The notes under the pieces: model-generated
Databases searched by the model: none
Told to the model about the DNA's origin: nothing
What the model saw: the letters and a program-made list of their open reading frames with translations, nothing else
Program-made: the position numbers and the translations under genes
Part shown: piece after piece, positions 1-31,382 of the stretch
How positions within the stretch are numbered: the stretch's first letter is position 1
How the letters are laid out: every line of letters starts with the position of its first letter
NCBI GenBank assembly: GCA_025934715.1
Contig: JAICWR010000004.1
Span: 1 to 36,430 of the forward strand
Reading direction: 5' to 3'
Source of the DNA: Candidatus Saccharimonadota bacterium
Lineage (GTDB): Bacteria; Patescibacteriota; Saccharimonadia; Saccharimonadales; UBA10212
Length of the DNA stretch: 36,430 nucleotides

Positions 1-926
1 CGATTGGTCACATAGTATTCGATTGTCGCGGCCGTGCTGTTGGCCGGGCTGATGACCACGTAGGGCGTGGAGCTGAATTGGTGCGTGAAGCTGATGGTCA
101 CAAAGCATCCGGCCGGCGCGCCGGAGCCGGTGTTGATGTTAATCGAACCGGCTGTGTCGCTGCCGCTGACAGACACCGTGCCGCCACCGCCCAAAGCCGT
201 GCCTCCGGAGCGGCCCGGGCCGCCACCGCTTGACACCAGGTGCTGGTTAAAGGCCAAGTCGCCCCTGATATTAAGCTTGGTCACGCTTAAAGTGGAAACA
301 TCCAGCGCTCCGAAGGTGGCAGTACCACTGACCGACAGGTTGTTTTTAACTGTCAGCTGGCCCTGGATGACCGTGTCTTTGCTGACATTCAGGCCGCCGC
401 TTATACCGATTTGGCCGAAGGTGCCGTTGCCGCCAACCGTGATAGACGGTAACGACAGCGGGCCGCCAACCTTAAGGTTGCCGGCCACGTTCAAATCGGA
501 TCTTAACAGGACCTGGCCTTCGAAAATCGAGTTGCTTTGGACATCCAGGGTGTTTTTGGAATCACCCACCAGCGTGGTGTTGCCTTTGAGGGTCGATAGC
601 TGCTGGTCGGTCAAAGAGCCGGCTTTATTGTTACTATTCTTCGGGGCGCCGGTCTTGATGCTGACATACACCACTATACCGGCCGCCAAAACCAGCAGAA
701 TGAACACAATCAAGTAAAGATTACCGAAGATCATAGATTTTCCCGGCGGGCCCTTCTTTGGCGCCTGGCCGGAAGGTGCGGCTGGCTGCTTATCCGTTGC
801 GGTAGGCGCCTCCGGCGCCTGGCCGGCCTTACCTGCGTCCAGGCTGTCTTCTTCTTGTGGCGCGGCTGGCGGCTGGGGTGGAGCCGCCGCCGGCTCATTA
901 GTTGGTTTGTTTTGGTCTTCGGGCAT
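1..926 (-). CDS. Membrane-anchored surface protein with Pro/Ala-rich N-terminus, one TM helix and repetitive beta (stalk/fibre-like) region; partial, runs off left edge
   Basis: Minus-strand ATG at 926 (MPEDQNKPTNEPAAAPPQPPAAPQEEDSL...GKSMIFGNLYLIVFILLVLAAGIVVYV...LNVAGNLKVGGPLSLPSITVGGNGTFGQIGISGGLNVSKDTVIQGQLTVKNNLSVSGTATFGALDVSTLSVTKLNIRGDL...). No stop before position 1, so it is absent from the ORF track. Confidence 0.85.
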   Translation of the reverse strand, partial: MPEDQNKPTNEPAAAPPQPPAAPQEEDSLDAGKAGQAPEAPTATDKQPAAPSGQAPKKGPPGKSMIFGNLYLIVFILLVLAAGIVVYVSIKTGAPKNSNNKAGSLTDQQLSTLKGNTTLVGDSKNTLDVQSNSIFEGQVLLRSDLNVAGNLKVGGPLSLPSITVGGNGTFGQIGISGGLNVSKDTVIQGQLTVKNNLSVSGTATFGALDVSTLSVTKLNIRGDLAFNQHLVSSGGGPGRSGGTALGGGGTVSVSGSDTAGSININTGSGAPAGCFVTISFTHQFSSTPYVVISPANSTAATIEYYVTN

Positions 927-1698: not shown

Positions 1699-2439
1699 AT
1701 GAAATGGTTACGTTTTGTCAGTCTCGGACTGTTTTCCCTTTTAGGTTTGGGAGGTGTAGCTTTTGCCCAGTATAGTTCGAGTAACTATAAGGCCAACGAA
1801 GTTATTTTCGGCTCGGGCGGCGACAATGGCCAGGCATCTGCTAATTACGAAGCCAGTGTGGCCGCCGGAATACTGGGAGTTGGCTTGTACAGCAGCGCCA
1901 ATTACCAAGCCTATTCAGGCTTTTTGACGCCGGGTGACCCCTTTTTGGAACTGGGCATAGATACGGCTTCTGTGGATTTAGGAAACCTAAGCCCCTCTAG
2001 CACTAATAGCGGGCAGGCAAGCTTCCACGTGCGGGCTTACATAGACAGCGGCTACACTGTGCAGACGGTCAGCCAGCCGCCAACTTACACAAGCGGGACC
2101 CGCAGCCATACTTTACCGGCCAAAGCCACTCTAGGGGCCCCGTCAGTTGGCATAGAAGAATTTGGCATCAACCTGGTCCATAACACTTCACCGGCAGTCG
2201 GCTCTGACCCGGCGCCGCAGCCAAGCAGCGCCTTCGCCACGGGCGTGGCGGCGTCGGGCTACAACACTCCAAACCAGTTTAAGTACAATGTTGGTGATAT
2301 CGTAGCCCAAACACCGTCCGGCAGCAGCGGCTGGGGGCTGACCCAATACACCATTTCTTATATAGCTGACGCCAGTATTTTGACTCCATCCGGTAATTAC
2401 CAGATGGCCCAAGATCTAGTGGTTGTCGCCACATACTAA
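1699..2439 (+). CDS. Secreted protein with C-terminal WxL-like/Patescibacteria surface domain
   Basis: Signal peptide MKWLRFVSLGLFSLLGLGGVAFA; shares FGINL..N, pN.F.Y..GD and C-terminal Y..(V)VATY-end pattern with ORF 5475..6512. Confidence 0.85.
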   Translation: MKWLRFVSLGLFSLLGLGGVAFAQYSSSNYKANEVIFGSGGDNGQASANYEASVAAGILGVGLYSSANYQAYSGFLTPGDPFLELGIDTASVDLGNLSPSSTNSGQASFHVRAYIDSGYTVQTVSQPPTYTSGTRSHTLPAKATLGAPSVGIEEFGINLVHNTSPAVGSDPAPQPSSAFATGVAASGYNTPNQFKYNVGDIVAQTPSGSSGWGLTQYTISYIADASILTPSGNYQMAQDLVVVATY

Positions 2440-2540
2440 AAAGACAAATTCGCTGACATGTGGAAAACTCCGCCAAAATCTTCTTTACATAGGGACGCTT
2501 ATGTTATAAATTCTCCTTAGGACTCAAAAAACAAAAAAAA

Positions 2541-3950
2541 ATGAAAAAAGTGCGCACTCTTATAAAGGGTCAAATCTACCGGTTATATTTACTGGCCGCG
2601 GCGGTAGTGATAGCCGCAGGCGGCATTATGCCTTTGCTGATGACAGGCCAGGCCGAGGCCTATGGGCAGATCACCAACCGGTCGCTGACGATTTCCTCCG
2701 GCGTGCCCAGTAAGACCAACGTTAAATACTCGTTCACCTTCACACTAGCTTCAACATCCGACGTCCAGAGCCTTAAATTCATAGCCTGTAACGCTCCGGC
2801 TGTCTTCACCTATCCGGGCAGTACCACCAACTGTGTTGCTCCAACCGGTTTGAGTTTCAGTAGCGCGACGTTTGATGCCCCCAGTTTTTCCGGTTGGCAG
2901 GGTGCCACTAACTTTGTGGCAGGCGCCGGCTCAGTGGGGAGCGACTGCGTAGCTGCCGCTAATATTATATGTGCCAACCGGACCGACCTCACAAACCAAA
3001 CGGCTACATCACGCACCATCGCGTTCACCGGCATTACGAACCCCAGTACAGTTAACACGGCCTTTTATGTTGGTATCTACACCTATAGCGATAGCGGCTA
3101 TACAGTTGGAAACCTGGTGGACTTTGGCGCCACCGCGACAGCCGTGACCCAAACGCTTACCACCGATGCGGCTGTGGCTGAAGTTTTGCAGTTTTGCGTG
3201 GGTGCGACCACTGTGGATGACGTCAATAACACCCTACCAGGCAACCTCATAGCCAACGATTGCTCAGGCGTCAGCGGCACCACCGTGGATATCGGTACTC
3301 TGGACACCTCAACAGTGAATATTTCGCCCGTGACAACCGATGGTGGAAATAGTAATAACGCCGTTGCCATGGTACGGAGTAATGCCGGTAATGGTGTGGG
3401 AGTTTATTATGATGCCATCCAAGCCTCAACCGGGACAAACCATCTGGGGGCGCTGCGCATCAGTGGCCAGACTTGTAACACCGTGGGCGACCCCGGGGCG
3501 GACCCCAATGGCAATACCTTTACAGATCCCTGCATAAACTCCGATGGCTGGAACGCCGGCACCGGAAATGCCACCCAAACCGCAATCAGTGCCGGAACTG
3601 AATCCTTTGGAATGACCATAGCCGGCGTCAACAGTAACGGTACGACTTCATACTCTTGCCAGTATGGCGATAGTGGCCAAAGCCTCGCCGTTGGCAACTC
3701 CTGCCACCTGGAGCCACAAACTAACTACCTAGGGGCCGGTGGTACAGGTACCGAAGATTACGGTACAAGCAACGGATTTGCCTGGGATGAAGACGGCAGC
3801 TCCACGATAATCGCCAGCTCCGCTGGATCCTCTGTAAAGCAGGTTGACGACGAAGCCCTTATGGTCAAATTCGCTGGTACCCCGGAAATCACCACGCCGT
3901 TCGGCCGCTACTCCGTGCAAACCGACTTCACCGCTGTACCCACCTACTAG
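2541..3950 (+). CDS. Secreted surface protein, paralogue of 4083..5444
   Basis: Signal peptide ending ...MTGQAEA; strong similarity to next ORF (SNN.VAMVRSNA.NGV.VYY.AIQASTG.NHLG.LRI; VDDEAL..KFA; TPFG.YSVQ.DF.AVPTY-end). Confidence 0.9.
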   Translation: MKKVRTLIKGQIYRLYLLAAAVVIAAGGIMPLLMTGQAEAYGQITNRSLTISSGVPSKTNVKYSFTFTLASTSDVQSLKFIACNAPAVFTYPGSTTNCVAPTGLSFSSATFDAPSFSGWQGATNFVAGAGSVGSDCVAAANIICANRTDLTNQTATSRTIAFTGITNPSTVNTAFYVGIYTYSDSGYTVGNLVDFGATATAVTQTLTTDAAVAEVLQFCVGATTVDDVNNTLPGNLIANDCSGVSGTTVDIGTLDTSTVNISPVTTDGGNSNNAVAMVRSNAGNGVGVYYDAIQASTGTNHLGALRISGQTCNTVGDPGADPNGNTFTDPCINSDGWNAGTGNATQTAISAGTESFGMTIAGVNSNGTTSYSCQYGDSGQSLAVGNSCHLEPQTNYLGAGGTGTEDYGTSNGFAWDEDGSSTIIASSAGSSVKQVDDEALMVKFAGTPEITTPFGRYSVQTDFTAVPTY

Positions 3951-3971
3951 CGCCTATACTCCGCTTATCTT

Positions 3972-3999
3972 AAAATCCGCCTTAGCAAGCGGATTTTTT
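3972..3999 (+). terminator. Rho-independent terminator
   Basis: AAAATCCGC-cttagcaa-GCGGATTTTTT: 9 bp stem followed by T tract, just after ORF 2541..3950. Confidence 0.85.
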
Positions 4000-4082
4000 G
4001 GTTGTATTGGGAAAGTGCTCATGGTATAAATTAATCAGTACTTTATCGGAGAGAAACACCCGAAACAGATACTCAAACCAAA

Positions 4083-5444
4083 ATGAGTAAAAGTCTTTTT
4101 GTTTTTGCTAAGAAAAAACAGCACCTTGCCGTGCTGGCTTGTTATTTGCTAGCTACAGTGGCGGTCTTTCTTTCTCCTCTCTTCTTGCTAACGGGTGAAG
4201 CCAGCGCCTCCGGCCAGCTTACCCTTAGGTCGCTCACATTAAGCACGGCTCAGGCTAGCGCCACGAACGTCTCTTATACATTCACCTTTAACAATGTCTC
4301 CACGACCGCGATAAAAGGGCTGAAGTTCATTGCTTGTACAACCGCTGTAGGCACCTATGGCGGCGGGAACACTTGTGCCGGAACGAGCACCGCTCCGACA
4401 GGCTTTAGTTTTTCAGCTGGTCCGGCCGCATTTGTGAGCCAGACCGGATTTGCCGACAACGGCATCAGTTTCGCTAGAGATGGCACTGGCGGAACCTATT
4501 GCACCCCGTCGGCTAACGTGCTCTGTGCCAGCAGGTCAGGGAACTCCACCGCTGAAACGACGAATACCACCCACACGATCAAATTTAGCGGCATCGTGAA
4601 CTCGTCCACCACGAACACCGCTTTTTATATCGGTATATATACCTACGACGCAACCACCAACGCCTCGGCATTGGACGGCGGAACAGTGGCCGGCGCCATA
4701 GTCCAGAGCCTGACTGTGAGCGCGCGGGTGGCTGAAATCTTAAACTTTTGTATCGGCAGCACGGCGGTTGATGACGCCACGACTGACCCGACTAACAGTG
4801 GCTCGCACGATTGCTCGGTGATCTCGGGCACGTCTGTGAATATCGGTACTTTGGACTCGGGAGCTGTTAATGTTTCCCCGGTTACCGCAAACGGCGGCGA
4901 TAGTAATAACGGCATAGCAATGGTTAGGAGTAATGCTGCTAACGGCGTCAATGTTTACTACAGGGCTATTCAGGCGTCGACTGGCGCTAACCATCTTGGC
5001 ACCCTTAGGATAACCGGAGCCACTTGTTCTACGCCGGGGAACAGTAACTCAGATGGCTGTATAAACGCCATCGGCAATACCCAGTCCAAAATAACCGCCG
5101 GCTCTGAAGATTTTGGCATGACAGTCGCCGGGGTCAATTGTGGCAGCACCACCAGCTACACCTGTACTTTCTCCACTGGTGCCTATGATCTTGTGCCACA
5201 AAGTCCATATGTGGGCGAAAGCGGCAATAACTTCTGTAATCTCGACACATGCAACACAGCCGGTAGTGGTTTTGCCTGGGATGAGACCGGCACAGCCGAG
5301 GAAATCGCTTCATCAACTGCCAGCGCTACACCGCAGGTTGACGATGAAGCCCTTATTCTAAAATTCGCGGCAACATCCAACATCATCACCCCATTCGGTT
5401 CTTATTCGGTCCAAGCCGATTTCATCGCCGTACCGACTTATTAG
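4083..5444 (+). CDS. Secreted surface protein, paralogue of 2541..3950
   Basis: Signal peptide ending ...LTGEASA; collinear similarity to the preceding gene through to the identical VPTY C-terminus. Confidence 0.9.
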   Translation: MSKSLFVFAKKKQHLAVLACYLLATVAVFLSPLFLLTGEASASGQLTLRSLTLSTAQASATNVSYTFTFNNVSTTAIKGLKFIACTTAVGTYGGGNTCAGTSTAPTGFSFSAGPAAFVSQTGFADNGISFARDGTGGTYCTPSANVLCASRSGNSTAETTNTTHTIKFSGIVNSSTTNTAFYIGIYTYDATTNASALDGGTVAGAIVQSLTVSARVAEILNFCIGSTAVDDATTDPTNSGSHDCSVISGTSVNIGTLDSGAVNVSPVTANGGDSNNGIAMVRSNAANGVNVYYRAIQASTGANHLGTLRITGATCSTPGNSNSDGCINAIGNTQSKITAGSEDFGMTVAGVNCGSTTSYTCTFSTGAYDLVPQSPYVGESGNNFCNLDTCNTAGSGFAWDETGTAEEIASSTASATPQVDDEALILKFAATSNIITPFGSYSVQADFIAVPTY

Positions 5445-5474
5445 CCGTCATTTAAGCTAGAATATATAAAGGTT

Positions 5475-6512
5475 ATGTTAAAGAAGAGCCGGGTCTTCAT
5501 ACTATTGGCTGTTGCTTTGCTCTGTGGTTTTTTGGTCGCCAAAGGCCAGACTGCAGCGAGCACCTTTCCCAACCGATCTGTGACTGTATCTTCAGGACTG
5601 CCCTCGGCGGTCACCACTCAAACATTTCGGTTCAACGTCCCCACTGCCTCGGTGGTTGGTTCTATCGTCTTGCAATATTGCTCCAATTCGCCACTATTTG
5701 TGATCCCGTGTGTAGCGCCTGCTGGGCTTGATGCCTCGGCGGCTAACTTAACCAGCCAGTCAGGCAACATCGGCTTTAGTGTAGATAGTGCGGATACTAC
5801 AGCGAGTGAAATCGTCCTGACCAGGACGGCCGCGCCGGGCTTGCTTGTGCCTAGCGCCTATTCTTTTAATAATATTACGAATCCGTCCACCACCGGGACA
5901 ACTTATGTCCGGATTTCGACGCATTCGTCAACAGATGGCAGCGGCGCCGAGGAGGACACCGGTGGAGTGGCATTCGCGACCCTCAATGCTTTTAATATCG
6001 GGGCGTTCGTACCGCCGTTTTTGCAACTATGCGTTGGTATCACAGTGGCCCCAGACTGCTCCACGACCAGCGGCGACAGCATTGATTTAGGAGACCTGTC
6101 ATCAACACGGGCTAATTTCGCCCAATCACAATTCGCGGTGGCAACTAATGACTTGTCTGGTTATACTATCTATTCGCTTGGCACCACCATGACCTCCGGA
6201 AACAACACGATTGCGGCTCTGGGCTCGCCAAGGGCCAGCTTTCCCGGTACGGCGCAGTTCGGTATCAACCTTCGGTCAAATCTCATCCCGCCGATTGGCC
6301 AAAACCCTGTTGGTGTCGGCACCGGAACCCCGACCGCAAACTATAACTTACCAAACCGCTTCACGTACATTGACGGCGACGCCATCGCCGATTCTCCGCT
6401 GACCACTAACTACAACCGCATGACTGTCTCGTATCTTGTGAACGTGCCGTCTAACCAGCCAGCCGGGATTTACGCCACCACCATAACCTACACAGCGATA
6501 GTTTCATTTTAA
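5475..6512 (+). CDS. Secreted surface protein with related C-terminal domain
   Basis: Signal peptide; FLQLCVG...; FGINLRSN...; YNRMTVSYLVNVPSNQPAGIYATTITYTAIVSF-end. Confidence 0.87.
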   Translation: MLKKSRVFILLAVALLCGFLVAKGQTAASTFPNRSVTVSSGLPSAVTTQTFRFNVPTASVVGSIVLQYCSNSPLFVIPCVAPAGLDASAANLTSQSGNIGFSVDSADTTASEIVLTRTAAPGLLVPSAYSFNNITNPSTTGTTYVRISTHSSTDGSGAEEDTGGVAFATLNAFNIGAFVPPFLQLCVGITVAPDCSTTSGDSIDLGDLSSTRANFAQSQFAVATNDLSGYTIYSLGTTMTSGNNTIAALGSPRASFPGTAQFGINLRSNLIPPIGQNPVGVGTGTPTANYNLPNRFTYIDGDAIADSPLTTNYNRMTVSYLVNVPSNQPAGIYATTITYTAIVSF

Positions 6513-6562
6513 TTACCCTGGGGCTTTGCTATACTATTTTTAACTGACCTAACGGAGAAAGA

Positions 6563-7531
6563 ATGCCAAAATTCAAAAAACTGATACCGGCAGTTGCAGC
6601 CTTTTCGCTGCTGTTCAATGCCATACCTTTCGTGGCTGCCCAGCAGGCCCCTAGTGGCAGCGGTTTGAGTATATCGCCCACCATTTCGCAGTACACGATT
6701 AAACAAGGTGGCAGCCAGAGCCTGACGATAACGCTTAAGAACGTGACAGTCGACGCCGTGGTGGCGAAGGGCGAAGTCGATGATTTTAAAGCCGATAACC
6801 TGACCGGCAACCCTCAAATTATCACTAATTCCAACCAAACGTCGCCAAACAGTATCAAACCGTTTGTGAATAACCTGGATGACGTGCCTTTGGCCAAAGG
6901 CCAGCAAAAACAGGTGATTATTGGGCTGGATATTCCTAAAAACACCCCGGCTGGCGCTTACTACGGAGTTATCCGCTACCGCGCCATACCAAAAAACCTG
7001 GCCCAGTCAGGACCGGGCCAGGTGGCTCTGACCGCCAGCGTAGGGACAATCGTGCTGATAACAGTCCCCGGTAATATCCGGACGCAGGTGCATGTTGACG
7101 GGCTGCAAGTTTACCGCGGTGCTCGCTCGGGCACACTTTTTGTCAAAACACCAAATAAAGTCGGCATAAAGATCACCAACTTTGGCAATGGCTTCATCCA
7201 GCCGTTTGGCGATATCGAAATACACGACATGTTTAATAAGAGTGTCGCCAACTTCCCGTTTAACAACCCTAAGCAGCTTGGTAACATTCTGCCCAATAGC
7301 AGCCGGACTTTCACGCACAACTTCAGCGGAGTCCATAAAATCGGACGTTACACTGTGTTGGCAAGTGTCAGCTACGGTAATGGCGGGCAAGTGCTGACTC
7401 TACAGAAAACGTTCTGGTACATACCGGTGTGGCTGATCATCATAATTGTCATTATCCTTGCCGGCTTGTTCTATCTGGCTTACCGTTCCTGGCGGGCATA
7501 TAAACGCAGCCAGAGGCATGGCCGCCGCTAG
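6563..7531 (+). CDS. DUF916/WxLIP-like protein with C-terminal TM helix and basic tail
   Basis: LSISPTISQYTIKQGGSQSLTITLKNV...IGLDIPKNTPAGAYYGVIRYRAI then WLIIIIVIILAGLFYLAYRSWRAYKRSQRHGRR; ggagaa Shine-Dalgarno upstream. Confidence 0.8.
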   Translation: MPKFKKLIPAVAAFSLLFNAIPFVAAQQAPSGSGLSISPTISQYTIKQGGSQSLTITLKNVTVDAVVAKGEVDDFKADNLTGNPQIITNSNQTSPNSIKPFVNNLDDVPLAKGQQKQVIIGLDIPKNTPAGAYYGVIRYRAIPKNLAQSGPGQVALTASVGTIVLITVPGNIRTQVHVDGLQVYRGARSGTLFVKTPNKVGIKITNFGNGFIQPFGDIEIHDMFNKSVANFPFNNPKQLGNILPNSSRTFTHNFSGVHKIGRYTVLASVSYGNGGQVLTLQKTFWYIPVWLIIIIVIILAGLFYLAYRSWRAYKRSQRHGRR

Positions 7532-7563
7532 CAACGTTTAACACCGCTCCGGGTGGGTGGAAA

Positions 7564-8448
7564 ATGAAAACCAAAAACCTAATCACAAACAAATGGCCCT
7601 GGGTGGCGCTTTTGGCGCCCTTGCTCATCATGTTATTCCCTCCGCCGGCCATAGCGGCCACTTCCGCGTCTGGGTCAACGGGGATCCAGGGTACGGTTCC
7701 CGGGCCGCCGCCTTCGCGCGGCGCCACCATCGACATACCGAGCAACGGCCAGTCTTTCAGTAACCTGCCGATCACCGTCTCGGGCTTATGCCCTGATAAT
7801 ACAACAGTCGAGATCTATAAAAATAATGTCTTCGCCGGTTCGGCGGACTGCTCACACGGCAGTTACAGCCTGCAAATTGATTTGTTCGATGGCCGGAACG
7901 ACTTGGTGGCTAAAGTTTTCGATAACCTCAATCAGGCTGGCCCCAACTCCAACACAGTGACCGTCACTTACCAGTCAGCCGTTCCAGTGGGCGGCCAACG
8001 GATCACTTTGACAACCCAATTTTCTAAACGGGGCGCCAACCCCGGAGAAGTTCTGACCTGGCCGATAACCTTGAGTGGCGGCGTTGGGCCTTACGCCATC
8101 AGCGTTGATTGGGGTGACAGCTCTAACCCTGATCTGATAAGCGAGAGCGCTCCGGGTAACTTTAACATCCAGCACACCTATGCCCAGGCCGGCGTTTATA
8201 AAGTGACTGTCAAAGCCACGGACTCAAAAGGGGACAGCGCCTTCCTCCAGCTGGTGGCCATCGCCAATGGGCCGGCCAAACTAACCGGCGGCAACACCAG
8301 CAACACCAATACGATAATCCAGACTAAAGTATTGCTTTGGCCAGTGATTGCTCTGTTTATTTTAATGCTGGCGTCATTTTTCATTGGCCGGCGCCACCAG
8401 CTTGAAGCCATCAGGAATAAGCTAAAAAAAGGCGATCCACCTCTTTAA
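7564..8448 (+). CDS. Membrane-anchored Ig-like/PKD-like domain protein
   Basis: Signal/TM N-terminus; PITVSG.CP..TTVEIYKN; PKD-like YAISVDWGDSSNPDLIS...NIQHTYAQAGVYKVTVKATDSKGD; C-terminal TM. Paralogue of 11505..12524. Confidence 0.85.
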   Translation: MKTKNLITNKWPWVALLAPLLIMLFPPPAIAATSASGSTGIQGTVPGPPPSRGATIDIPSNGQSFSNLPITVSGLCPDNTTVEIYKNNVFAGSADCSHGSYSLQIDLFDGRNDLVAKVFDNLNQAGPNSNTVTVTYQSAVPVGGQRITLTTQFSKRGANPGEVLTWPITLSGGVGPYAISVDWGDSSNPDLISESAPGNFNIQHTYAQAGVYKVTVKATDSKGDSAFLQLVAIANGPAKLTGGNTSNTNTIIQTKVLLWPVIALFILMLASFFIGRRHQLEAIRNKLKKGDPPL

Positions 8449-11504: not shown

Positions 11505-12524
11505 ATGGCACGGCCAAAAACTAAAAAGCGCCCGCCCAGAAAAACACCCAGGCGTAAAATCAGCTTAATGCTGGCGAATCCGCTGGCGGTCTTTTTATTG
11601 TTGTGCGTCGGCGTTTTTCTATCGGGCTGGACGCTCAAGGCCAAGGGGGCGGATATACGGGTCACGGCCGCAGTCCATGGCCCGGCAGTGACTTCGCCGG
11701 CGGTTATCATGGCTCCGGCTAACAGGCAGCACTTCAAATCAATTCCTATAACCGTGAGCGGCAGTTGCCCGGTTAATGCCGCCTATGTGGAGATATTCCG
11801 CAATGACGTGATGGGCGGCTCGGCGCTTTGCGACGGCAGTGGCGACTTTCAGCTGTCGGTCAGCTTATTTTCTGGCCGGAATGATTTAGCGGCCCATGTC
11901 TTTAACGTCACGGATGACGAAGGCCCGGTTTCACCAACCGTGACAGTTTATTATGACGCGCCAAATCCGCCGCCTCCCGCAAGCCACCAGCCTAACTCAG
12001 GATCCAGCTCCGGTTCATCCGGCGCCGGGTCGAACACGGCTGTGGCCCCGCTATCGCTAACAACCGCGTTCCTATACAAGGGATATTACATTGGGCAGAA
12101 GGTGGTTTGGCCTTTGCGTATCGGTGGCGGAACACCGCCTTATGCCCTAAATGTTAACTGGGGAGACGGCCAAAGCGATGTCATCAGCCGCGGCGTGGCT
12201 GGAGATTTCAATATCAGCCACACCTATTCTGCGCGCGGGGGCTATAAAAACAGTTACACGATTAAAGTTAATGCCGCCGATAGCGCTGGCCAAAAAGCCT
12301 TCCTGCAGTTCTTCGTCATTGTCAACAGTCAAACCGCCGTTGGTCCTGTAGGCGGTATATTTTCCAAGCCGCCGCCTAGCTTACCAGGCAGCCATAGATG
12401 GCTGTGGCTGGCTTGGCCCGCCTATACGGTCGTGCTCATCATGTTCGTGAGCTATTGGCTGGGCGAGCGTGAAGAGCTGATAAAATTGCGCAAAAAAGGC
12501 CTCTTAAAGACCAGGCGGACGTGA
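11505..12524 (+). CDS. Membrane-anchored Ig-like/PKD-like domain protein, paralogue of 7564..8448
   Basis: N-terminal TM/signal, PITVSGSCPVN...VEIFRNDV..GSALCDGSG, LNVNWGDGQSDVISRGVAGDFNISHTYSARGG, C-terminal TM with basic tail. Confidence 0.85.
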   Translation: MARPKTKKRPPRKTPRRKISLMLANPLAVFLLLCVGVFLSGWTLKAKGADIRVTAAVHGPAVTSPAVIMAPANRQHFKSIPITVSGSCPVNAAYVEIFRNDVMGGSALCDGSGDFQLSVSLFSGRNDLAAHVFNVTDDEGPVSPTVTVYYDAPNPPPPASHQPNSGSSSGSSGAGSNTAVAPLSLTTAFLYKGYYIGQKVVWPLRIGGGTPPYALNVNWGDGQSDVISRGVAGDFNISHTYSARGGYKNSYTIKVNAADSAGQKAFLQFFVIVNSQTAVGPVGGIFSKPPPSLPGSHRWLWLAWPAYTVVLIMFVSYWLGEREELIKLRKKGLLKTRRT

Positions 12525-12563
12525 GTTGCTTAGGTGTTGGCGTGCTATAATTTAACCTGAATC

Positions 12564-13883
12564 ATGGCTATGCTTAACAGGGCCAAGGATCTTGGCCATT
12601 CCCTTAAGAACAAAATTCCTAAAGAACCAACCACCAGGCTGCGCGGGGAGCCGGAAGGCGAATATATGGTGGCGCTGGATGTCGGCACCGAGTTCGTAAA
12701 AGCTTTAATCGGCCGGGTGACCGGCGATGAAGTGGAGATTATTGGCGTGGGCCGGGCCCATCAGGAGCTGGCCGATATGCAAGCCGGCGCCATCGCCGAC
12801 ATCGCCGCCGTGGTGGCTAATTGCGACAAGGCGTTAGCAGCGGCCGAACAACAAGCCGGCGTCAGCGCGCGGACCGCCATGGTCGGCATCGCCGGTGAAT
12901 TGGTCAAAGGCACCACCAGCACCGTCCGCTTCACTCGCAAGAACCCTTCAAAAGAACTTAGCATTGATGAAATGGCCCGAATCATCGAACTGGTGCAGGA
13001 ACGGGCCGAAGCCAAAGCCAGACAGGAGCTGGCCTGGGAGCTCGGCGGCAAAGATGTCGAGGTCCGGCTGGTCAACAGCGCCCTGGTGCGCATCGATATT
13101 GACGGTTATAAAGTCACCAACCCTGTGGGGTTCCAGGGACGGGATATTTTAGTGGAGATGTACACGGCTTTTGCCCCCATGATCCATATCGGGGCGCTGG
13201 AACGCACCGCGGCCGAGCTCGATTTGGAGTTACTCGCAGTGGCTGCCGAACCCTTTGCTGTAGCCCGCAGCGTAGTCGGCGATGACCCTAATGCCAGCGT
13301 CAGCGCCATATTAATGGATGTCGGCGGCGGCACATCGGACATTGCTGTGGTTAATGAAGGCGGCGTGGAAGGGACCAAAATGTTCGGCATTGGCGGCCGG
13401 GCTTTCACCCATGCCATTGAGCGCGATTTGGACATTGATTTCGTCAAGGCCGAAGCCCTTAAGCTCAGCCTGTCGTCAACCCACGAGACCGCCCATAAAG
13501 AGACGGTCGAAAAAGCCCTGCATAAAACCCTGAACGTCTGGATCAATGGCGTCGAACTGGCGTTAAGCGAGTTCACCAAACTGGACCATCTGCCGCACCG
13601 GATACTGCTTTGCGGTGGCGGCTCCAGCCTTAAAATGCTGATAGATAAGCTTGAAAGTTCAGAGTGGCATAAAGCCCTGCCTTTCACCCGAAAGCCCATG
13701 GTCCACCATATTAATCCGCACGACGTCGTGGGTATAACTGATTCAACCGGCAGCATCACCGACCACACCTTTGTGACAGCCATGGGCCTGCTACGGGTTG
13801 GTCTCGACACCCTCAATTCAGCCATCGCTGAAGAAGGAGAGAGCACCATAAAAGGCCGTTTGAACAGAATGCTTAGGGTATGA
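12564..13883 (+). CDS. FtsA/PilM-like actin-fold ATPase
   Basis: VALDVGTEFVKALIGRV, MDVGGGTSDIAVVNEG, ILLCGGGSSLKML; FtsA-like architecture. Confidence 0.85.
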   Translation: MAMLNRAKDLGHSLKNKIPKEPTTRLRGEPEGEYMVALDVGTEFVKALIGRVTGDEVEIIGVGRAHQELADMQAGAIADIAAVVANCDKALAAAEQQAGVSARTAMVGIAGELVKGTTSTVRFTRKNPSKELSIDEMARIIELVQERAEAKARQELAWELGGKDVEVRLVNSALVRIDIDGYKVTNPVGFQGRDILVEMYTAFAPMIHIGALERTAAELDLELLAVAAEPFAVARSVVGDDPNASVSAILMDVGGGTSDIAVVNEGGVEGTKMFGIGGRAFTHAIERDLDIDFVKAEALKLSLSSTHETAHKETVEKALHKTLNVWINGVELALSEFTKLDHLPHRILLCGGGSSLKMLIDKLESSEWHKALPFTRKPMVHHINPHDVVGITDSTGSITDHTFVTAMGLLRVGLDTLNSAIAEEGESTIKGRLNRMLRV

Positions 13884-15634
13884 GCGCTAAAATTCCACCA
13901 AAACCGGGCAAGCCGACCAAAGACGTTATTTACGTAGATGTTGATGATGAAATAACCGGCATCATTGATAAGGTCGAAAATTCAGCGCACAAAGTGGTGG
14001 CGCTGGTGCTGCCTAAACGGGCGGCCAGCTTACAGAGCATCGTTAACATGAAGCTTCTTAAGCGCAGCGCTGATGGGGCCGATAAAAACGTGGTTTTGAT
14101 AACCAGCGAGCATGCTTTGTTGCCGCTAGCCGGCGCCGCTGGCTTGCATGTGGCCCGTAACCTCCAAAGCACTCCAGAAATCCCCGATGCGCCGACCGCG
14201 GCTGCAACCGATAAAACTGGCGGGGAATTACCGCCAGAAGCGGTGCCTGGCGAAGAGGCCGCTGAAGACCTCCCCCAAAAATTTGACTATAGCCGGCCGA
14301 TCGGCGCGCTGGCAGCCAAGCACGACGCTGAGAACCCCGAAACGATTGATCTGGATGATGAGGATGAAAAACCGGAGGCCTTGGCCGGGGCGGCAGCCAT
14401 AGCGTCTAAGAAGAAACCAAAGGTCGAAAGGCCTAAAATACCTAACTTCGACCGGTTCAGGATGTTAATTGGCCTCGGGGGCCTGGCGCTGCTCGCCCTG
14501 ATAATTTTTATAATCCTGGCGCTTTTTGTGCTGCCAAAAGCCACAATTAGCATCACCACCACAAGTGAACCCGTTTCGGCCAGCTTTAACCTCAACGCTT
14601 CGCCCGGCGCCCCAGCCGACCCGGCCTCCGGCACTATTCCATCCAAGATCGAAAGTTCTGACTTAACTGGCACCCAGTCTGTGACTGCCACTGGCCAGCA
14701 GAACAAAGGGAATACAGCCACCGGCAGCATATCCATGACGGCCCAAAAATGCTCTGGCAATCTATTCACTCCGCCCAGCGACGTCCCGGCCGGAACCGGT
14801 GTAAGTTCAGGCGGCGCATCATTCATAACACAGGACGACACCTCCTTTCATGGGGTGAGTACGAATGGTAGTTGCGCGACTTATGCCTCAGATAACAACA
14901 CGGACATCACCGCTAATGCCCCCGGATCAAAATTTAATCTCAATAACGCCAACTTCACAGTTTCCGGCCGATCAGACGTGAGCGGGTCCGGTTCGGCCTC
15001 AGGCGGTTCGGATAACATTGTCACTGTGCTTAGCCAAAGCGATGTTGACGGCGCCAAGCAGAAACTGACCAGCGGGACCAAGTCTGATGACTTCGTTAAA
15101 TCGTTTGAAGATAAACTAGCCAGCCAAGGCGAATATGTGCTGACCTCAACGCTTAAAGCCGGCAGCCCGCAAATCACTGCATCGCCTTCTGTCGGCCAGC
15201 CAGCCAGCTCGGCTAACGTCGATATCAAAATCACCTATACTGTCATCGCCCTCCAAAAGTCCGACTTAAGCAAAATAATCGAGGCTAAATTATCCGGACA
15301 GATTGATAAAAAGAAGCAGAAACTCAACGGAAACTTTTTGGGCGACGCCACCATTAACGTATCAAGCCAGGATGCTAAAGGCGACGCTCTGCTTGATGTG
15401 AATATTCAAACCACAGCCATACCGATTATCAATGTAGGCGATGTTAAAAACGTCGCCAAGGGCCACAAAACCGGCGATATCCAGTCAGCCATTGGCAATT
15501 GGGCCGGCGTTAAAAACGTTGATGTCAAGCTAAGCCCGTTCTGGGTCAGCAAGGTGCCTAGCAAAGACAGTAAAATCACAGTTACTTTCCACCAGGTTAA
15601 ATCAGATAGCAGTAAAAACAGCAGTGCCCCCTGA
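13880..15634 (+). CDS. Large single-TM protein; N-terminal cytosolic domain, extracytoplasmic region possibly baseplate-J-like
   Basis: 584 aa, ATGA overlap with upstream ftsA-like gene; VVALVLPKRAASLQSIVNMKLLKRSADGADKNVVLITSEHALLPLAGAAGLHVA; TM FIIFIILALFVLPK-like segment. Confidence 0.8.
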   Translation: MSAKIPPKPGKPTKDVIYVDVDDEITGIIDKVENSAHKVVALVLPKRAASLQSIVNMKLLKRSADGADKNVVLITSEHALLPLAGAAGLHVARNLQSTPEIPDAPTAAATDKTGGELPPEAVPGEEAAEDLPQKFDYSRPIGALAAKHDAENPETIDLDDEDEKPEALAGAAAIASKKKPKVERPKIPNFDRFRMLIGLGGLALLALIIFIILALFVLPKATISITTTSEPVSASFNLNASPGAPADPASGTIPSKIESSDLTGTQSVTATGQQNKGNTATGSISMTAQKCSGNLFTPPSDVPAGTGVSSGGASFITQDDTSFHGVSTNGSCATYASDNNTDITANAPGSKFNLNNANFTVSGRSDVSGSGSASGGSDNIVTVLSQSDVDGAKQKLTSGTKSDDFVKSFEDKLASQGEYVLTSTLKAGSPQITASPSVGQPASSANVDIKITYTVIALQKSDLSKIIEAKLSGQIDKKKQKLNGNFLGDATINVSSQDAKGDALLDVNIQTTAIPIINVGDVKNVAKGHKTGDIQSAIGNWAGVKNVDVKLSPFWVSKVPSKDSKITVTFHQVKSDSSKNSSAP

Positions 15635-30839: not shown

Positions 30840-31382
30840 CTAGTAAGGGTAACCCGAACCGCTGGAAGAAGCCGGCTGGGTGGAACTGGAGCTAGGCTGG
30901 GAGGCCGCGGCCGAAGAGGGCATGGCCACAGAGAAATTCTGAACTCCGTTGCCAGTGACTTGGGTGCCGCTATCGCCAGTGAAGAAGTAAAGCGGATGTC
31001 CGTTGTAAACGTACTGGACCTGTCCGTTATCAGACCGGGTGAGGGTCGTGATTCCCGACGGCAGGCTTGCAGTGGAAGCTTTAGCCGTGTAGGCGGGCCA
31101 GTTCGAGAGGCACGAGCCGGTGCAGTTACTCTTATTTGTGCTGTCGCCGTTGAAGAAGTACAAAGGCTTGCCGCTAGGGTCGGTCAGGATCTTTCCCAGC
31201 TGGGGATCGGTTTTAGTTAGTACAATCGAATTGTTAGTGGCCGGTGTGTTAGCGGTTTGGGAAGTTGTCCCGGGCGAATTGTTCGTGGAAGGGCTGGAGG
31301 ACTTATGGAAAACGGCGAATAAAATCGCGGCGATCACCACCACGACGATTACGCCTATCACTCCCTTGATACTTCTACTCAT
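30840..31382 (-). CDS. TM-anchored COG4315/PF03640-like repeat protein
   Basis: N-terminal TM; ILTDPSGKPLYFFNGDSTNKSNCTGSCLSNWPAYTA and YVYNGHPLYFFTGDS repeats. Confidence 0.85.
   Translation of the reverse strand: MSRSIKGVIGVIVVVVIAAILFAVFHKSSSPSTNNSPGTTSQTANTPATNNSIVLTKTDPQLGKILTDPSGKPLYFFNGDSTNKSNCTGSCLSNWPAYTAKASTASLPSGITTLTRSDNGQVQYVYNGHPLYFFTGDSGTQVTGNGVQNFSVAMPSSAAASQPSSSSTQPASSSGSGYPY

Follow-up and report, generated by a model that had tools for sequence, protein, structure and literature searches.

A WxLIP-like partner of pilin genes in a Pam pilus cluster from Candidatus Saccharimonadota

The DNA described here, referred to below as the window, is a stretch of 36,430 nucleotides from contig JAICWR010000004.1 of a Candidatus Saccharimonadota bacterium (assembly GCA_025934715.1; genome of 0.71 Mb in 33 contigs, 95% complete), and between positions 1699 and 8448 it carries six open reading frames (ORFs) on the same strand, separated by intergenic gaps of 26–133 bases and designated T (ORF 1699), A (ORF 2541), B (ORF 4083), P (ORF 5475), W (ORF 6563) and R (ORF 7564). 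Judged by family matches, this cluster is the Pam pilus system as named by NCBIfam, and it probably encodes a hair-like surface fibre of Saccharibacteria. The less expected part of the locus is W, a near-invariant partner that resembles both WxLIP proteins and pilus chaperones and whose pairing with pilin genes extends across the phylum. The hairpin and conserved strand of W, the precedent of the WxLIP proteins and the pairing of pilin and W genes make a chaperone and base anchor of a strand-exchanging pilus the best reading of this protein. On the strength of sequences and structural models, we consider it reasonably likely that W is tethered in the membrane and donates a beta strand to pilins that assemble into a fibre without an usher.

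A central question about epibionts of the Candidate Phyla Radiation (CPR), still open, is how they grip their hosts; type IV pili have received most attention here. The Pam genes represent a second, widely conserved fibre cluster, a named system on which we found no paper, and for which we found no assembly route described, in the literature searched. Recognition of W as a pilin partner makes the Pam assembly route directly testable, gives a hint of how folding and anchoring of the fibre may proceed, and links three systems that are usually treated apart, namely Pam pili, WxL/WxLIP surface complexes and chaperone-usher pili.

Exported subunits of the Pam family

Three members of the cluster exceed the cut-offs of NCBIfam release 20. 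T is recognized as 'CPR-type pilus protein PamT' (NF058579, 246.2 bits; cut-off 240) and R as 'pilus system RbmA-like protein PamR' (NF058578, 385.5 bits; cut-off 300), while the pilin-C model NF058581, 'Pam pilus system pilin subunit' (cut-off 55 bits), matches the C-terminal half of P with 167 bits and T with 134 bits. A and B score 15–18 bits against the same model, under its cut-off, and a single search of the genome with NF058581 recovers all four of T, A, B and P. Profile–profile comparison with hhalign joins them further: P against T gives 99.9%, and a joint profile of A and B against that of P gives 100%, or 99.7% when the C domains are compared alone. The C-terminal beta domains of the four proteins are thus related by these profile comparisons. 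All four possess an N-terminal hydrophobic export segment and none has a C-terminal transmembrane (TM) segment or an LPxTG signal, so that a preliminary description of the locus, which had seen four consecutive exported, anchor-less proteins sharing C-terminal beta domains, is borne out. That description had also placed a PKD-like TM protein at the end of the cluster, as is indeed found in R; both W and R combine an N-terminal hydrophobic segment with an additional TM segment at the C-terminus. No LPxTG-type sorting signal occurs in any of the eight cluster proteins, and a sortase-assembled pilus was rejected because the subunits do not carry one; three sortase genes are found elsewhere in the genome.

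The subunits differ in how constant they are. Pilins A and B are 49% identical (blastp E 4e-125), and proteins of the A/B type are the most diverged of the system, with a mean pairwise identity of 32% compared with 34% for W, 39% for P, 41% for T and 47% for R. One to five A/B-type pilins are present per cluster. A/B pilins vary between species in both number and sequence, whereas T and P are constant. A terminal Phe or Tyr is shared by nearly all homologues (79/81 for T, 108/109 for P and 121/122 for A/B; Phe specifically in 105 of the 109 P homologues), and in P this aromatic residue follows a C-terminal strand with alternating hydrophobic residues and invariant Gly-331 and Tyr-333. The C-terminal strand of chaperone-usher pilins resembles this aromatic-ended, alternating strand. 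The AlphaFold2 model of P contains two beta domains (mean predicted local distance difference test score, pLDDT, 94.7). A fold search with it returned only generic two-domain immunoglobulin (Ig)-like adhesins at a whole-chain template modelling score of ~0.2, which is uninformative, as was a search of a viral library. No relatives were found when the PDB was searched by sequence with the W and P profiles.

Conservation of W and its pairing with pilin genes

Gene order was followed in 80 named loci collected through similarity to PamR and in 40 further regions from a genome sample, two sets that partly overlap. Of 148 sampled members of the same order, 89 have PamR, and homologues of the cluster come almost entirely from Saccharibacteria, in agreement with the CPR bacterium that had been suggested from the sequence alone. 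Where the order could be assessed, W immediately precedes R in 75 of 76 of the named loci and in 38 of 40 of the further regions, and the order P-W-R is kept in 69/70 and 36/38, respectively; synteny across CPR genomes had been put forward as a check. In the three exceptions listed (loci L037, L039 and L120) an extra pilin sits between W and R. Conservation of gene order is far above chance. The W genes of Saccharibacteria follow a pilin gene in 77 of 79 and 44 of 46 cases; where a cluster has two W genes each is nearly always preceded by a pilin, and an extra W comes with an extra pilin. Six loci (L147, L148, L150, L151, L154 and L156) carry an additional pilin-W pair 3' of PamR, the pilin-W module having been duplicated there as a unit. 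Elsewhere, the contigs of L044, L046, L048, L051, L058, L067 and L075 break off shortly upstream of P, W or R, and the number of contig ends in these positions suggests that repeats or variability in the pilin region break assemblies.

The pairing is found beyond the class. When the whole phylum was searched with the pilin-C model, weaker matches appeared in other classes, and 20 loci known through this model alone were searched with a W profile. A pilin gene was touched by a W gene of like orientation in 17 of the 20, and in 15 of the 18 that lie outside the Saccharibacteria class (the 17/20 was tallied by hand, with L197 tallied from the coordinates of its pilin-C match). These genomes hold 1–6 W genes each, and chance adjacency of pilin and W should thus be rare. 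PamR was detected outside the class at one of the pilin-C loci, as a weak match, and from this pilin and W look like a phylum-wide core to which PamR would have been added at class level.

W had been taken from the outset for a DUF916/WxLIP-like protein with a C-terminal TM, and several comparisons bear this out. The W of the window scores 12.9 bits against PF06030, below the gathering cut-off of 27.3; 16 of 17 W homologues match this family, the best with an E value of 1e-7. No convincing match for W or for 16 W homologues was obtained in NCBIfam release 20. With hhalign, W aligns to DUF916-DUF3324 proteins of Bacillota at 98.3% across 256 columns that cover both domains, and to a broader DUF916-DUF3324 set at 99.2% (E 1e-19), a figure equalled by the W set from outside Saccharibacteria; column-shuffled controls scored at most 25, compared with 143–144 for the real profiles (at most 20 against 144 for W and the broader set). 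The second domain of W on its own was not recognized (0.5%). The AlphaFold2 model of W (pLDDT 91.5; predicted template modelling score, pTM, 0.80) retrieved Enterococcus faecium WxLIP structures first in a fold search (9i1y, E 4e-11, and 9i25). NQ-x-DK, from the WxLIP motif NQIDKxxxYFDLK, was found in none of 129 W homologues. By its profiles and predicted fold, W is a relative of WxLIP with a DUF916-DUF3324-TM architecture.

W also resembles the chaperones of archaic pili, for which profiles were built from chaperone-usher operons on environmental plasmids. W gives 97% against these chaperones in hhalign, with a score of 78 compared with at most 21 for shuffled profiles; W proteins of other classes give 94.7%, and PamR, used as a control, 0.2%. 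Most of the signal is borne by the first domain of W, which alone reaches 93%. After WxLIP, the next best matches of the fold search include CfaA, EcpB, CsuC, DraB and Caf1M. Neither PapD_N nor the usher family PF00577 has a match in the genome.

Proposed assembly route and its alternatives

Our current working hypothesis is that T, A, B and P would be fibre subunits exported through Sec and sharing a C-terminal pilin domain, and that W probably takes up each pilin at the exit of the Sec channel. W would then lend strand 154–160 to the incomplete beta sandwich of the pilin. This strand, V-x-L-x-A-S-V, shows alternating hydrophobic conservation and follows a flexible hairpin in residues 141–160 (pLDDT 75–79), within the region aligned to DUF916. 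In WxLIP, a strand of the DUF916 hairpin is predicted to complete the sandwich of the WxL partner (PMC10599100). The subunits would polymerize through strand exchange, without an usher, and W would stay with the last subunit as the base anchor; that subunit is probably P, the gene for which nearly always adjoins W. R may brace the base of the fibre at the membrane. Strand donation, polymer order, anchoring and a plausible use in host attachment are what we infer for the Pam fibre from sequences and models.

A number of observations weigh against this proposal. The proposal is drawn from genes and from models of single chains. The second domain of W by itself reaches only 5% against the chaperones, and Firmicute DUF916 matches them weakly (12%), which leaves a three-way relationship of WxLIP, chaperones and W hypothetical. 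Ig-like folds match permissively, RbmA and cilia proteins being among the matches to W as well. The model of P is confident in each of its domains, so that the model alone gives no proof of a missing strand. Finally, the pilin C domains match the SCPU pilins of archaic systems weakly, at 30% for P and 45% for the set from other classes (scores of 29–30, compared with at most 20 for shuffles) and at about 1% for T and A/B, and the match of the wider-phylum pilins spans only ~40 residues.

Since W is a full-length WxLIP relative, and since Firmicute WxL clusters follow the same plan of exported beta proteins beside a DUF916-DUF3324-TM gene, one may ask whether the locus encodes a cell-wall complex in which a true WxLIP fastens diverged WxL proteins to peptidoglycan, with no fibre. 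The preliminary description leaned this way, regarding the exported proteins as WxL-like and pointing to a GWGL sequence in ORF 1699. The sequence is present, but in only 7 of 81 PamT homologues; it is therefore not a conserved motif, and we take it as chance. Two W-x-L motifs within the C-terminal 230 residues occur in none of the homologues of T (0/81), P (0/109) or A/B (0/122), 312 in all. There is no WxL gene in the cluster, the Pfam WxL family (PF13731) matching no cluster member or searched homologue, and the C domains of the exported proteins align to real WxL domains at 0.1–0.9% in hhalign; a solved WxL chain was also sought by sequence and not found. On the motif counts and the profile comparison we reject WxL membership of T, A, B and P, and as NQ-x-DK is also absent from every W, we regard a WxL-type complex as quite improbable. 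Judged by sequence, the locus belongs with pilus clusters, though with a WxLIP-like partner, and is not of the WxL type. Of the suggested surface coat or adhesion complex, a surface fibre or adhesion complex is likely and fits the pilus name given by NCBIfam, while the WxL-type cluster is not upheld.

Other alternatives keep the exported subunits but assign W a different part. A fibre might polymerize by itself or through some other assembly protein, and W might be no more than a membrane protein that binds peptidoglycan or the host, functions that have been proposed for WxLIP; the pilus name of the family would fit this too, and sortases and secretion ATPases are encoded elsewhere in the genome. 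The pairing of W and pilin genes, their joint duplication and the chaperone likeness of W point instead to direct contact between pilin and W, and we consider such a fibre unlikely. The exported proteins might also form a non-fibrous coat or an S-layer-like layer of Ig-like adhesins anchored via W and R, as would suit their two-domain, adhesin-like fold and the fact that no filament was seen here. A coat is very unlikely in our estimation, given the terminal aromatic residue and alternating strand, as in strand-exchanging pilins, and the existence of a pilus family name. A broader proposal may be entertained, tentative and in our view rather doubtful, in which pili of monoderm CPR bacteria are built by an usher-less chaperone pathway with membrane-anchored W and strand-accepting pilins as its phylum-wide core; WxL with WxLIP in Firmicutes, and pilin with chaperone in Gram-negative bacteria, would be branches of the same ancient module.

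Features of the window and comparison with known systems

Table 1. Features of the Pam cluster and its surroundings in the window
Feature	Position	Strand	Basis or remarks
Conserved N-terminal-TM protein, 226 residues	992..1672	+	TM residues 18-46; accessory, present in some clusters only, mostly immediately 5' of pamT
PamT (T), exported; N-terminal NY/G-rich domain and predicted Pam pilin C domain (1960-2436)	1699..2439	+	NF058579, NF058581
Pilin A, exported, two domains (predicted)	2541..3950	+	Weak NF058581 match, 15-18 bits; blastp against B
Terminator-like hairpin with T-run, 9-pair stem, directly 3' of pilin A	3972..3997	+	Stem prediction
Pilin B, exported, two domains (predicted)	4083..5444	+	C-terminal NF058581 match, 17 bits; A/B profile against P profile
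Pilin P, directly before W, invariant; two beta-sandwich domains (predicted), C domain 6069-6509	5475..6512	+	NF058581, AlphaFold2
W, WxLIP/PapD-like two-domain protein with C-terminal TM; proposed pilin chaperone/base anchor	6563..7531	+	hhalign, fold search
W residues 141-160, flexible hairpin then alternating strand; candidate donor strand	6983..7042	+	pLDDT, conservation
W C-terminal TM helix, residues 289-319 (predicted)	7427..7519	+	Helix in AlphaFold2 model, hydropathy
PamR (R), Glucodextranase-B-like and PKD Ig domains, C-terminal TM	7564..8448	+	NF058578; PKD 25.4 bits
Second PamR-like protein, 3' of mnmA and alaS, 5' of ftsA/pilM-like gene	11505..12524	+	NF058578, 240 bits, under 300 cut-off

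The small protein encoded upstream of pamT has no significant family match in scans of Pfam/NCBIfam-type libraries, and 25 homologues of it lie within Pam loci. The hairpin that follows pilin A may be a partial terminator that sets the ratio of T and A to the downstream subunits; in a member of the same genus (L077) a different T-run hairpin is found in the equivalent position, at ~4720–4764. On the 3' side the cluster is followed by mnmA, alaS, the second R-like gene, the position of which is kept in several relatives, and an ftsA/pilM-like gene. The second PamR-like protein, the FtsA/PilM-like ATPase and a 584-residue protein without a family match form a group (11505–15634) that is conserved after alaS in many relatives. 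Upstream, a divergent gene truncated by the end of the window (3–926, minus strand) encodes an N-terminal TM followed by a repetitive Gly/Leu-rich region, features that are suggestive of a beta-helix adhesin. At 30840–31382 (minus strand) lies the gene for a small exported-type protein with secreted repeats (Lipoprotein_15).

The closest known system is Pam itself as defined by NF058578, NF058579 and NF058581, with which the cluster shares the type of organism and in which T, P and R exceed the cut-offs; it departs from those models in that A and B do not reach the pilin cut-off and in that the near-invariant partner W matches no NCBIfam model. Sortase-assembled pili differ in that Pam subunits have no LPxTG-type sorting signal. 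The WxL clusters of Firmicutes are alike in that exported beta proteins are encoded beside an Ig-like protein of two domains that ends in a TM segment, and W matches their WxLIP over its full length in both profile and fold; unlike those clusters, the Pam partners have neither pairs of WxL motifs nor similarity to WxL profiles, W does not contain the NQIDK motif, and PamT and PamR do not belong to WxL clusters. Archaic (Csu-type) chaperone-usher pili also have adjacent genes for pilin and chaperone, a chaperone to which W aligns across both domains, and pilins that end in an aromatic residue after an alternating strand; here, by contrast, there is no usher and no PapD_N match, W is predicted to be membrane-anchored, and the match between pilins and SCPU (30–45%) is suggestive only. 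Saccharibacteria also bind their hosts with type IV pili (PMC12206443), which are likewise surface filaments of this group; their subunits and assembly genes are different, and T2SSE-type ATPase genes are located on contigs other than that of the Pam cluster.

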